NCBI GenBank assembly: GCA_025362495.1
Contig: JANYGI010000220.1
Span: 1 to 64,000 of the forward strand
From: Byssovorax sp.
GTDB lineage: Bacteria; Myxococcota_A; Polyangia; Polyangiales; Polyangiaceae
DNA length: 64,000 bases
Direction: 5' to 3'
The number at the start of each line of letters is the position of its first letter. The first letter of the stretch is position 1. Under the pieces are notes generated by a model. That model was not told the DNA's origin. It ran no database searches and worked only from the letters and a program-made list of their open reading frames with translations. The position numbers and the translations under genes are program-made. Below are positions 15,503-22,302 of the stretch, piece by piece.

Positions 15503-18500
15503 ATGGGAAGTCTCGCCCGCACGGCAGAAACCACGCTGGGCCCCTATCGGATCCTCGACGTCCTCGGCCAGGGAGGCATGGGCGTCGTTTATCGCGGCGA
15601 GCACCTCGTCACAGGTCGCCTCGTGGCCCTGAAGACGGTGCGTTCGGGAGCGGAGATCATGGTCGCTGGCATCCGCCGCGAGATCCACGCGCTCGGTCGC
15701 ATTCTGCACCCTGGCGTGGTGCGGATCGTCGATCAGGGCGTCTCCGCGGGGCTGCCCTGGTACGCGATGGAGCTACTCCAGGGGCGCACGCTCCGATCTC
15801 ATCTTCAGGAGGCGTGGACGCACGATGGCGCGGACGCAGCGCGCCCCTTCACCGCGACGCGCACGTGGTCCTCGAGCGACGACAGCGCGACGGCGCCCTC
15901 GATGGTCACCAGCCTCGCGACGGCGCCGCGCGCGATCCAGTCCGCGCTCCTCGCGCTGCTCTCGATGATCCGGCGCATCTGCGCGCCGCTCGGCTTCCTC
16001 CACGGCCGCGGCATCGTTCACCGCGATCTCAAGCCCGAGAACATCTTCATTCGCGCCGACGGCTCGCCGGTGCTCGTCGATCTCGGGATCGCGGGCGGCT
16101 TCAGCGGCGCGCTCGGGCGCGAAGAGCTCGCCGCCGAGGGCAAACTGATGGGCAGCCTCGCGTACATGGCGCCCGAGCAGATCCGCGCCGAGCTCGTGGA
16201 CGCGCGCGCCGATCTCTATGCGCTCGGGTGCATCCTTTACGAGTGCGTGACCGGGCGTCCGCCCTTCGTGGGCGCCTCGGCGGAGTCGCTGCTGTACCAG
16301 CACCGCAACGTGGCGCCGGTCCCACCGTCACGTCACGTCCCCACGATCCCGGCCGCGCTCGAGGCTCTCATCCTCGGGATGCTGGCGAAGCGCCCACGCG
16401 ATCGGATCGGGTACGCCGACGACGTCGCCCAGGCGCTCCACGCGCTCGGCGCGGCGGACGACGATCCGCGAGGACTCCCCGAGGCCGAGCCCTACCTCTA
16501 TCGCCCCGATCTCGCGGGCCGCGAGGACGCCCTCGCGACGATCGAGCGCGCGCTCGATCGCGCCCGCGACGAGCAGCGGGGCGGGTGCGTCTTCGTCGGC
16601 GGCGAGAGCGGCGTCGGCAAGACGCGCCTCGCGATGGAGGCCGCCAGGATCGCCGCGCAGCAAGGGCTCAGCGTGATCGTCGGCAGGTGCGCCGCGCTCG
16701 GCGACGGCGACCGCGGGATCGCCGCCGCGCCGCTTCACCCGCTCCGGCCGCTGCTCCTCGCGGTAGCCGATCGGTGCCGCGCGCTCGGCGCCGCAGAGGC
16801 GGAGCGGCTGCTCGGATCGCGAGGCGCAGTGCTCTCGGCGTACGAGCGTTCTCTCGCAGAGCTGGCCACCGCAATAGCCACGCCGCCAGGGTCGCCCGAG
16901 GCCGCTCGCGCCCAGGTCCTCGATGCGCTCGCGGCCACGCTCTTCGCCTTCGCCGAGGCCCGCCCGCTGCTCCTCGTGCTCGACGATCTCCAGTGGGCCG
17001 ACGATCTCTCGCTCGCCTTTCTGCGACGGCTTTCGCTCGCAGATTTCGCCGGACATCGCGCGATCGTCGTCGGCACCTACCGCATGGAAGAGCGGAGCGA
17101 CGAGCTCGCCGCGATCGTGCGCGCGCCGGCCGTGCTCGGCCTCGAGCTGAGCCGCCTCGACGCGCGGAGCGTGGGGGCGATGGTCTCCGGCATGCTCGCT
17201 CTGCGCGAGCCTCCGCCGATCCTGATCGATTTTCTCGATCAGCGATCCGACGGGAATCCCTTCTTCGTCGCCGAGTACCTCCGAGCGGCGATCCTCGATG
17301 GCATGCTGACGCGCAGCCGGGAGGGCGCGTGGCGGCTGCACGAGCGCGGGCATGCGGAGGGATCGCTCGACGCCTCGCTCTCGCTCCCCTGCGCGCTCTC
17401 GGGCCTGATCGAGCGGCGGCTGCGCGATCTCGGCGATCGAGGTCACGCGCTGGTGCAGTGGGCATCGGTCCTCGGGCGCGAGGTCGACGGTGAGCTGCTC
17501 ACACGCACCGCGGGGCTCGACGACGCGGCCATGATGGAGGCGATCGAGCTGCTGCGCGTGCGGCAGATCCTCGAGGAGCCCGCGCCCGGGCAGCTCCGCT
17601 TCGTTCACGACAAGATCCGCGAGCTCGCCTACGCGCAGATCCCCGACGGCGAGCGCCGCGGGCTCCACCACCGCGCGGCCGAGGCGATCGAGGTGCTCTC
17701 GGCCGACGCGCCCGACGCCTTCCCGTCGCTCGGTCATCACTTCGCGCGGGCCGATCTACCCGACAAGGCGGGCCTTTATTTCACGCGCGCCGGGGATCGC
17801 GCGCAGGCGGCCCACGCCAACGGGGACGCGATCACGTTCTACCGCGCCGCCGTCGGCGAATCCGCGCGCCTCCGCGCGGAAGTGCGGATCGTGTGGCGCG
17901 AGCCGATCGCGCAGATCCATGGACGACTCGGCGAAGTGCTGGCGCTCGTCGGGCGTCCCGAAGAGGCGCGAAGCGCCCTTGATGACGCGCTCGCGCTCGC
18001 GCCCGCGGGCGATCCGATCGCGCGCGCGATGCTCCATCGCGGCATCGGCAAGACCTGGGAGGCGCGCCACCAGCACGAGGACGCCCTCCGCGCCTACACG
18101 GCCGCGGAGGAGGCGCTCGGCACGGCGCCGACCGGATCCGCCCCGGCATGGTGGAACGCGTGGGTGCAGATCCAGATCGAGCGCATCTCGGTCCACTACT
18201 GGGCGGCCCGCGTCGATCTCATGACGCCGCTCGTGGAGAAGGTCCGTCCCGTGGTGGAGCGGCAGGCGACGGCGCTCCAGCGCGCGCGCTTCTTTCACGT
18301 GCTCACCCAGATGAACGTGAAGCGCGAGCGCTCCGCGACGTCGAGCGAGACAGTGGGTTACGCCCGCGCGTGCCTGGCGGCGGCCGAGGAGGCGGGCGAC
18401 GCGGGCGAGATCGCCGAGCACACCTTCTCGCTCGCTGCGGTGCTGCTCTTGCGCGACGAGCACGGCGATCCAGGCTTGCTCGACGAGGCGGCCGATCGGC

Positions 18501-20929: not shown

Positions 20930-22302
20930 CCATTCATATCTTCACCGGCCCGACGCTCTCCGCGGACGAGGCTCGCGCAGAGATCGACGCCGTCGTTCAC
21001 CCACCCGCAGCGCAGGGCGACGTTTACCGGGCCGCGCTCGAACGGCCGGCGGCGATTGGCATCATCGACGGGTATTTCGAGCACGTCCCGTCGGTATCGC
21101 ACAAGGAGATCCTCTGGGCGATGTCCGAGGGCGTCCACGTCTTCGGCAGCGCCAGCCTCGGCGCCCTGCGCGCGGCCGAGCTCGCCCCCTTCGGGATGGA
21201 GGGCATCGGCAGCGTCTTCGACGCGTTTGCGCGCGGCGATCTCGAGGACGACGACGAGGTCGCGGTGGCGCACGCGACGGCGGAGGACGGCTATCGCCCG
21301 GCCTCGGAGGCGATGGTCAACATCCGCGCGACCCTCGCAGCAGCCATGTCCAGCGGTGAGATCGATGCGGCCTTCGGGGAGGCAATCACGGCGATCGCCA
21401 AGCAACTATTCTATCCCGACCGCTGCTATTCAATCGTCCTGGCGCGGGCGATCGAGGCCGGGCTCGATCCGGCGGCGATCGAGGCGCTCCGCGCCTTCCT
21501 GCGGGGTGGCCAAGTCAACCGGAAGCGCGAGGACGCCCGCGCCATGCTGCGAGTGATGCGCGAGCGCGTCGCAGCGGGGATCGCGCCCAAGAAGGTGAGC
21601 TATTCCTTCATGCGCACCGATGCATGGGAGTTCATCCGCGCCAACGCGGAGCGGCGGACAGATAGCGTCACTACGACCCTGCCAGCAGCGCTGCTGGAGG
21701 AGCTCCAGATCTCGGGGGCTCTGCCGGCGGCGCAGCGAGGGGCGATGGCCCGGGCGCTGGCCATCGATGCCGCGCAGAGGCAGAGTCGGACGGCGCGCGG
21801 CGTGGTGTTGCAGGACGCGCTGGACGGCTTCCGCCTGGATCGGGGGCTGCTCGGGCCTGGCGATCTCCAGCGCTGGATCGAAGAGCAAGAGATTGGCGAC
21901 CTCGAGCACTTCATCAAGGGCGAAGCCCAGGTGCGCTGGGCGGATGCTCTGTTCACCTCGCACGCGTCGCGGAGCCTCGGTGATCACCTGCGCTCGACAG
22001 GCGAGTACGGCCCGCTGCTGGCGAGGGCCCGAGCCAAGGAGAGCGCCCTCGCGGCGCGCGCTCCGGAGAGCGCTGAAAAGCGCGAGATGCCAGCGGCGGA
22101 GCTCTATCGCTGGTACTTCGAGGAGCGGGTGCGCCGGCCAGTCCCGACCGATCTCGCAATTTACGCGCGCTCGATCGGGTTGCCCGACGAGGCTGCCCTG
22201 GTGCGCGCGATCCGACGGGAGCTCTCGTACGTGTCGAGCTCCGAGGCTCAACGCGAGAACACCACCGTGCCGTCGGTGCCCGGCATTCCCACGAACGAAT
22301 AG
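20926..22302 (+). CDS. TfuA-like protein with long C-terminal extension
   Basis: The first ~200 residues are a TfuA core: IFTGPTLSADEA, IGIIDGYFEHVPSVSHKEIL, GVHVFGSASLGALRAAELAP and FGMEGIGSVFDAF. TfuA proteins accompany YcaO enzymes and are thought to deliver sulfide or help backbone thioamidation. Usual TfuA proteins are about 220-260 residues; this one has 458. The extra 250 residues are helical, repeat-poor and end in a polar tail. GTG 20926 overlaps the YcaO stop, so the two are translationally coupled. The IS91-like terminal block that abuts the vgrG 3' part begins about 120 bases after its stop codon. Confidence 0.9.
   Translation: MTIHIFTGPTLSADEARAEIDAVVHPPAAQGDVYRAALERPAAIGIIDGYFEHVPSVSHKEILWAMSEGVHVFGSASLGALRAAELAPFGMEGIGSVFDAFARGDLEDDDEVAVAHATAEDGYRPASEAMVNIRATLAAAMSSGEIDAAFGEAITAIAKQLFYPDRCYSIVLARAIEAGLDPAAIEALRAFLRGGQVNRKREDARAMLRVMRERVAAGIAPKKVSYSFMRTDAWEFIRANAERRTDSVTTTLPAALLEELQISGALPAAQRGAMARALAIDAAQRQSRTARGVVLQDALDGFRLDRGLLGPGDLQRWIEEQEIGDLEHFIKGEAQVRWADALFTSHASRSLGDHLRSTGEYGPLLARARAKESALAARAPESAEKREMPAAELYRWYFEERVRRPVPTDLAIYARSIGLPDEAALVRAIRRELSYVSSSEAQRENTTVPSVPGIPTNE

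Follow-up and report, generated by a model that had tools for sequence, protein, structure and literature searches.

A YcaO-TfuA operon of Byssovorax sp. with a candidate protein-sized precursor and a conserved kinase-ATPase

The first 64,000 nucleotides of contig JANYGI010000220.1 of Byssovorax sp. (assembly GCA_025362495.1; order Polyangiales, class Polyangia), hereafter the window, carry an operon that encodes a Ser/Thr kinase-ATPase, a small protein of 193 amino acids (aa), a YcaO protein and a TfuA protein. An earlier note, made from the sequence alone, had described the four genes as an operon with intervals of 35 and 22 bases and with TfuA overlapping YcaO. Re-derived coordinates agree on every point, all four genes lying on the same strand and the overlap amounting to 4 bases. 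In the source genome (10.8 Mb in 240 contigs, 96.6% complete), the YcaO of this operon, P0003, is the only one found. The operon comprises the following features.

15503..19021, + strand: P0001, Ser/Thr kinase - AAA_16 (STAND-type) ATPase - TPR protein, 1172 aa (Pfam; clade of YcaO-adjacent kinases)
19057..19638, + strand: P0002, 193 aa, candidate protein-sized precursor or substrate of YcaO-TfuA (open reading frame (ORF), profile, alignment)
19381..19635, + strand: C-terminal precursor domain of P0002 (alignment; 20.9 bits with a profile lacking the window's row)
19387..19440, + strand: leader-like hairpin of P0002, ILVRGFDNSGAEIYGQI, a variant with an insertion (alignment; AlphaFold2 (AF2) strands at residues 112-117 and 123-128)
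19588..19605, + strand: C178-Y-L-L-N-L183 of P0002, candidate core (C178 is the only Cys of P0002)
19661..20929, + strand: P0003, YcaO, 422 aa, TTG start at 19661 (Pfam; match to 6pe3, E 1.2e-36)
20926..22302, + strand: P0004, TfuA, 458 aa, GTG start at 20926, with an extra C-terminal region at about residues 215-458 (Pfam; residues 5-214 match 6xp8, E 1.5e-33)

Pfam recognizes Pkinase (E 1.5e-37), AAA_16 (1.1e-23) and, under its cut-off, TPR_12 (8.1e-6) in P0001, YcaO (E 1.1e-85) in P0003 and TfuA (E 1.6e-45) in P0004, and matched no family in P0002. The arrangement was compared across 55 loci, window included, taken from stretches around TfuA matches in genomes of the order; TfuA was recognized by script at these loci (it was not in L073), and genes were called with a simple codon-score script rather than a standard gene finder. 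Kinase, small protein, YcaO and TfuA follow one another on the same strand, with no called gene between them, at 12 of the 55 loci, or 13 if L042 is added, where the gene caller missed the small gene. The same arrangement is found in L151, from a genome of another family within the class. The recurrence of the four-gene set in other myxobacteria, which the earlier note proposed to look for, is thus borne out. That note had made its proposal depend on two points, and both came out in its favour: the small protein and the kinase are conserved beside YcaO-TfuA elsewhere, and no overlooked short precursor gene was found.

The evidence that P0002 belongs to a family of precursors lies at its C-terminus. 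At 26 of the 55 loci, a protein of about 80-280 aa stands directly before YcaO, and its last domain mostly ends in C-Y-h-h-N-L (h, hydrophobic), with endings such as NCYLLNLASF in the window and NCYVLNLSRF, VCYVVNLGSL, ACFLLNLPSL and TCYVLNPSPI elsewhere. The pattern C[YFT][VLIM][VLIM]N[LMP] occurs within the last 40 residues of 20 of these 26 proteins and is absent from all 628 other genes predicted at these loci; since the 26 loci were chosen by the motif (L046 being a later addition, and L150 and L151 standing outside the set), the count among them is not independent, and the controls are the 628 other genes and the profile searches. The C-terminal domains of the members align (alignment A1), and a profile of this domain searched against 317 genomes of the class returned 31 matches in 25 genomes, 29 of them directly before a YcaO. 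Of the other two, one is an additional copy in a cluster already counted (G131) and one is probably due to chance (G020, E 0.034, on a 10 kb contig with no YcaO, TfuA or kinase match). TfuA was found in 40 of the 183 genomes of the order, and, provided that the class set contains the order set, the domain is present in 23 of these 40 against 1 of the 143 TfuA-negative genomes; as the profile was built from neighbours of TfuA, this co-occurrence speaks for its specificity and not for its reach.

The sole domain match within the source genome is P0002. After removal of the window's row (the alignment was not redone), the profile still recovers it at 20.9 bits, while the best of 200 shuffled sequences reaches 11.5 bits and the reversed sequence 1.4. 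Among 655 ORFs of at least 20 aa in the window, the same profile retrieves only P0002 (E 1.1e-5, the next match having 1.1). A search of the operon for short ORFs that have both a coding score and a sequence resembling a ribosome site came up empty. The remark of the earlier note that the expected precursor is not visible therefore holds for a short one; the precursor itself would not be absent but large, most likely the 193-aa protein. Weaker domain matches were obtained in L048 (E 1.7e-3), L049 (4.1e-6) and L065 (0.021), in genes transcribed away from YcaO, and those of L048 and L049 end in VPLVN, without a Cys. An internal duplication of P0002 (LYLLNIPVL at about 78-86 against CYLLNLASF, noticed by eye) was discarded, with a BLAST E of 1.8 and 0.5 bits for the first half in the profile; in L055 and L063, the first copy obtains 9.2 and 9.8 bits. 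At L034, L037, L043, L050 and L061, NmrA-like and small dabb-like genes (named by eye) directly precede the precursor gene and, where a kinase is seen, lie between the two; the 252-aa one of L034 is without a Pfam family. In Vibrio and Photobacterium (L204 7251-7979; L228 7006-7920), proteins of 243 and 305 aa before YcaO end in ACYVANLRTF and VCTVANLQSF and are perhaps distant members.

The domain starts with a hairpin of the form hhhxGxDGxxYxh, a form also seen at the start of short precursor peptides encoded beside YcaO-TfuA in other phyla. At many loci outside Myxococcota, the gene before YcaO encodes a short peptide with a similar hairpin at its start: MIRGADGRLYAV in Azospirillum, VLIRGADGKLYSA followed by three SSWFA units in Anaerolineae, and FLMVGDDGSVYHI followed by repeated DIIV units in Thermoanaerobaculia. 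Short hairpin precursors with repeated cores were found in L171 and L178. A hairpin profile was built from 13 Polyangia proteins; some of the outside peptides had been seen beforehand, and none was included. In 60 non-Myxococcota loci and at a threshold of 4 bits, it matched 17 of 172 ORFs directly upstream of YcaO and 5 of the other 8425; at 8 bits, the counts are 6 of 172 and 2 of 8425. One of the 17 matches (L203) looks spurious. We interpret the hairpin as a candidate recognition element; in the large members, the candidate core would be the C-Y-h-h-N strand. Rows L156 and L158 begin after the hairpin in alignment A5, and row L158 begins one codon late in A4; L066 was taken with 300 aa from a provisional start codon, and other starts were picked by eye. 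Precursor-like peptides with repeated core units stand by YcaO-TfuA at L178 5052-5336, L171 7704-7904 and L212 7450-7956; L178 (Thermoanaerobaculia) shows a YcaO with a kinase-ATPase upstream, and its contig ends before TfuA. A Nif11-like peptide (by eye; L062 6857-7150) precedes a YcaO-TfuA locus without the motif. Taken together, the C-terminal motif family before YcaO and the hairpin common to short precursors make the 193-aa protein most likely the precursor, and the suggestion of the earlier note that it could be the substrate is the one we favour.

The second conserved partner is the kinase-ATPase. P0001 has 265 matches in the source genome, so the presence of such a kinase alone means little. 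A kinase-ATPase is nevertheless in view at 22 of the 26 motif loci, upstream and on the same strand at 18 of them, and by the same criterion it is seen among the non-motif loci at L048, L049 and L065; L078, L079 and L080 have kinase-domain proteins near TfuA without an AAA match. A tree was built from those kinases in the fetched stretches that exceed 800 aa and match AAA or TPR (L078, L079 and L080 excluded; non-cluster kinases sampled mainly from the source genome). In it, the YcaO-adjacent kinases fall into a single clade (support 100/99); of its 26 rows, 24 stand beside YcaO and the other two are own-genome paralogues. A second, quicker tree places kinases of Myxococcus, Pyxidicoccus, Corallococcus and the alphaproteobacteria Roseibium and Pseudovibrio within this clade. 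Among 80 YcaO loci of named species (the best 80 of at least 569 relatives in a scan of species genomes with the YcaO alignment, at least eleven of them on contigs already encountered), a kinase-ATPase is in view at 16 of 22 with the domain (E<0.01) and at 1 of 58 without it; the exception, L154, has an upstream protein that ends in TCYLLDLQSL, a variant of the motif by eye. Nine of these 22 contigs had contributed to the profile; among the remaining 13, 9 have the kinase. In a tree of 52 YcaO rows (fusions of YcaO with TfuA were trimmed to 450 aa, and sequences shorter than 300 aa or lying more than 3 kb from TfuA were excluded), the motif label needs 2 changes, against 17.5 in shuffles.

A probable regulator and a pair of related genes lie on the other side of the kinase gene.

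11160..13016, + strand: sigma-54 activator with an FHA domain (start alternatively at 11046), which probably regulates the module (Pfam: FHA 3.3e-14, Sigma54_activat 8e-69, HTH_8 4.1e-12)
13326..14120, - strand: P0006, resembles a lipoprotein and is paralogous to P0005; may be a partner or an output gene (N-terminus lipobox-like by eye)
14281..14967, - strand: P0005, 228 aa, same family as P0006, possible partner or output gene (similarity to P0006)
15037..15052, - strand: sigma-54 promoter-like site with one mismatch, before P0005 (single site; window-wide count not above chance)

Counting the window, 15 of the 26 motif loci have a relative of the sigma-54 activator next to them. Pfam finds FHA in 10 of the 12 activators seen whole, those of L060, L064 and L067 being cut by the end of the stretch. 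It is absent from L042 and L051, which also have kinases of another clade, and the idea that every activator carries the domain was accordingly dropped. An FHA protein without a sigma-54 domain is present at four more motif loci (L034, L036, L063 and L066) and at 4 of the 29 other loci (L046, with a clear domain match, and L048, L049 and L065, with weaker ones); neither kind of protein was found at the remaining 25 non-motif loci. Together, activator and FHA proteins beside these loci suggest a phospho-signalling module. The tie of a Ser/Thr kinase to YcaO-TfuA, which the earlier note had raised from a single operon, is supported as a conserved one and is accompanied by a sigma-54 activator that usually has an FHA domain. 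Sigma-54 sites number 4 in the window against 7.5 expected; allowing two mismatches, sigma-54-like sites precede 5 of 22 cluster kinases against 13 of 594 (p 2e-4; L053 and L054 are near copies). Similar sites were seen before the divergent gene in L060 and L067 and before the precursor in L067.

P0006 is 38% identical to P0005, and both are divergent from the kinase gene (region 13326-15012). Their family occurs in 7 of the 183 genomes of the order, and each of these also has the precursor domain; of the 12 family matches, 6 are located at the cluster. A relationship of P0002 to P0005 and P0006 was considered and dropped, no similarity having been found. Further away, the window contains an ORF resembling a group II intron reverse transcriptase (9067-10110, + strand, by eye) and, 3' of TfuA, a VgrG-like piece (Gp5_trimer_C; 22519-23445, + strand); VgrG-like genes also lie 3' of TfuA in the Polyangium fumosum-type loci L060 and L067.

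What the enzymes are expected to do follows from published accounts, in which YcaO activates a backbone amide and TfuA hydrolyses thiocarboxylated ThiS and thereby delivers sulfide; McrA and uL16 are the protein thioamides listed by the same authors (PMC13063428, PMC8939145). In the window, TfuA adjoins YcaO, the arrangement of a YcaO-TfuA system. Against the NCBIfam models, YcaO reaches 227.2 of 365 bits (TIGR03266) and TfuA 208.8 of 235.2 (NF033432), so that the McrA-type cut-offs are not reached. The source genome has five ThiS-family matches and with them a sulfur carrier of the ThiS type, a generic finding shared with 11 of 14 control genomes. The extra C-terminal region of TfuA weakly resembles TIGR04500 (E 3.6e-5), a putative peptide maturation protein, and TfuA relatives at motif loci have lengths near 250 and near 380-480 aa.

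On these grounds, we consider it probable that the operon is a phospho-signalling-linked protein modification module, in which the 193-aa protein is the thioamidated substrate and the kinase and the FHA activator gate expression. The C-terminal domain of P0002, ending in the strand C178-Y-L-L-N-L, would be bound through its recognition hairpin (hhhxGxDGxxYxh type); YcaO would activate a backbone amide there with ATP, and TfuA would supply sulfide from a thiocarboxylated ThiS-type carrier. The outcome would be a backbone thioamide at or beside the C178-N182 motif. Upstream of these steps, the kinase-ATPase may sense a signal and phosphorylate, and the FHA protein may read phospho-Thr and fire sigma-54 transcription, kinase and activator thus setting the timing of expression. 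While gene order, recurrence, precursor family, common hairpin, kinase clade and activator neighbour are observed, we infer the thioamidation, the modified residue and site, the signal, the role of the kinase and the regulatory wiring.

Several observations weigh against this proposal. A pairwise search with P0002 found no relative in the 183 genomes of the order and a search in plasmids was empty, so that its conservation is visible only with a profile, and the hairpin-only profile misses P0002 itself, which carries an insertion in the turn. The motif varies between members: L041 and L044 carry about 85 residues past it, the Cys is shifted in L042 and L051, S replaces N in L061, and the aligned protein of L050 has no Cys. 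The motif could be structural rather than a core. AF2 models place the hairpin and the C-Y-h-h segment in strands, but they are weak (pLDDT 55.5 and 72.3), and a fold search with the domain model matched no solved fold (no E <0.001, no Z >=2). As for regulation, sigma-54-like sites before cluster kinases are not significant with one mismatch (p 0.17), and P0001 itself has none. The kinases of L042, L051, L151, L172 and L178 lie outside the main clade, which makes the kinase exchangeable; L037, L041 and L057 have a precursor and no kinase in the fetched stretch; and the closest own-genome paralogues of P0001 (L118 and L119, about 46% identity) have no YcaO beside them. Finally, the correlated divergence of the three proteins described below comes partly from shared ancestry.

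The alternative that survives best, although we hold it to be unlikely, is that the 193-aa protein serves as a recognition or scaffold subunit, similar to a RiPP (ribosomally synthesized and post-translationally modified peptide) recognition element or to a carrier, while YcaO-TfuA modify another protein, such as P0005/P0006 or an unlinked one. The protein size and partly folded predicted domain, the single gene per YcaO at most loci, a near-sole Cys that could serve a sulfur carrier, and the confinement of the P0005/P0006 family to 7 of 183 genomes, all with the system, would suit such a role. A substrate better explains the extreme divergence of the precursor domain, whose mean identity over 18 loci is 0.22 against 0.54 for the conserved YcaO, as expected of a substrate. 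It also better explains the variable N-terminal parts, illustrated by L160, whose Ig-like Big_2 domain is the only Pfam or NCBIfam family above cut-off among ten family members and relatives tested. The same is true of the two copies in L043 (two precursor genes before one YcaO) and L050 (a second small ORF behind the aligned one, reading FCICVNVASI; 14.4 bits, E 3.5e-4), and of the similar hairpins that start short peptides with repeated cores.

Slightly less likely still is a kinase that acts as a tailoring enzyme and phosphorylates the precursor, or YcaO or TfuA, directly instead of regulating the module. Class III and IV lanthipeptide synthetases contain kinase domains that phosphorylate the precursor. 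Location in the same operon agrees with such a function, as does the covariation of kinase distances with those of YcaO and precursor: over 18 of the 26 motif loci, Mantel correlations are 0.815 for YcaO-kinase (p 2e-4), 0.771 for YcaO-precursor and 0.507 for kinase-precursor. This comparison, like that of identities, leaves out L037, L041, L043 and L057 (no such kinase), L042 and L051 (other kinase), and L054 and L067 (near copies). However, the AAA and TPR architecture and the neighbouring sigma-54 activator, mostly with FHA, resemble signalling, and the Pfam scan of P0001 shows no lyase or cyclase domain.

It is rather improbable that the reaction of YcaO yields a thiazoline at the motif Cys and not a thioamide. 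This Cys is conserved and is the only one of the protein in 9 of the 26 members, window included, and azolines belong to the chemistry of the YcaO superfamily (PMC13063428). Yet the adjoining TfuA is tied to sulfur delivery (PMC13063428, PMC8939145), and P0003 is closer to the thioamidation type (TIGR03266, E 3e-67) than to the SagD type (9.9e-39), both scores lying below cut-off. That kinase and small protein stand next to an ordinary YcaO-TfuA pair by chance, as the 265 genome matches to P0001 (mostly to the kinase domain among the matches listed) might suggest, is scarcely credible and is contradicted by recurrence over families and phyla and by a dedicated kinase clade.

The proposed modification module, with P0002 as its substrate, resembles several known systems without coinciding with any. 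Like thioviridamide- and thiovarsolin-type ('TfuA-related') RiPP clusters, it has adjacent YcaO and TfuA and a candidate precursor gene directly upstream. Relatives of that precursor share a hairpin with short precursors of other loci, while P0002 itself is recovered by the domain profile and not by the hairpin-only one. Unlike these clusters, its precursor has 193 aa (about 80-280 aa in the family) with extra N-terminal parts, a kinase-ATPase and a sigma-54 activator are attached, and no protease or exporter was recognized in the operon by eye, no genome-wide search for either having been made. The thioamidation of McrA (by a TfuA-type YcaO) and of uL16 (by the E. coli YcaO) likewise involves a YcaO that acts on a whole protein, with TfuA present as for McrA, whereas the presumed target in the window is different and rapidly diverging and the McrA-type models are not matched at cut-off. 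The module further differs from the uL16 system by its adjacent TfuA, the uL16-type YcaO being described without a TfuA nearby (PMC13063428). Closest on the kinase side is the thiazole/oxazole-modified microcin (TOMM) kinase/cyclase fusion TIGR03903, a kinase-AAA-TPR-like protein named by NCBI as part of a YcaO-type peptide system; because of it, a kinase beside YcaO is not wholly unprecedented, although P0001 scores 244.7 of 705.75 bits, below cut-off, and lacks a cyclase domain in the Pfam scan. TIGR03903 proteins are associated with azole-type TOMM clusters.

Previous mining of YcaO-TfuA loci was conducted with RiPPER, with a precursor size window of 20-120 aa in one study (PMC6511847), and RiPPER was also used in another (PMC8120280); the word 'kinase' occurs in the main text of neither. 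P0002, with 193 aa, falls outside that size range, and no other precursor-like ORF lies in the window. Corallococcus is listed among the dominant gene-cluster families (PMC8120280), so such clusters have already been counted. A literature search outside subscription papers and supplements found no description of YcaO-TfuA combined with a large target and kinase/FHA signalling in myxobacteria. Most of these targets escape precursor mining with an upper limit of 120 aa, and a YcaO-TfuA branch of myxobacteria and relatives has accordingly been left without a proposed substrate, as far as we found.

The common hairpin and the Cys motif now provide a concrete target and residues, and would widen protein thioamidation beyond McrA and uL16. 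Beyond the window, we tentatively raise the possibility, which we regard as less probable than its converse, that Bacteria, above all Myxococcota, use a regulated backbone thioamidation of full-size, fast-evolving proteins rather than natural-product peptides, running from a signal through the kinase and the FHA sigma-54 activator to the C-terminal C-Y-h-h-N-L strand of a protein that stays whole and works with the P0005/P0006 family. If true, protein thioamidation would gain a third class, the first with a tie to phospho-signalling. With the hairpin and the motif as a starting point, signalling control of a backbone modification would become testable in named strains of Myxococcus, Pyxidicoccus, Corallococcus and Polyangium.

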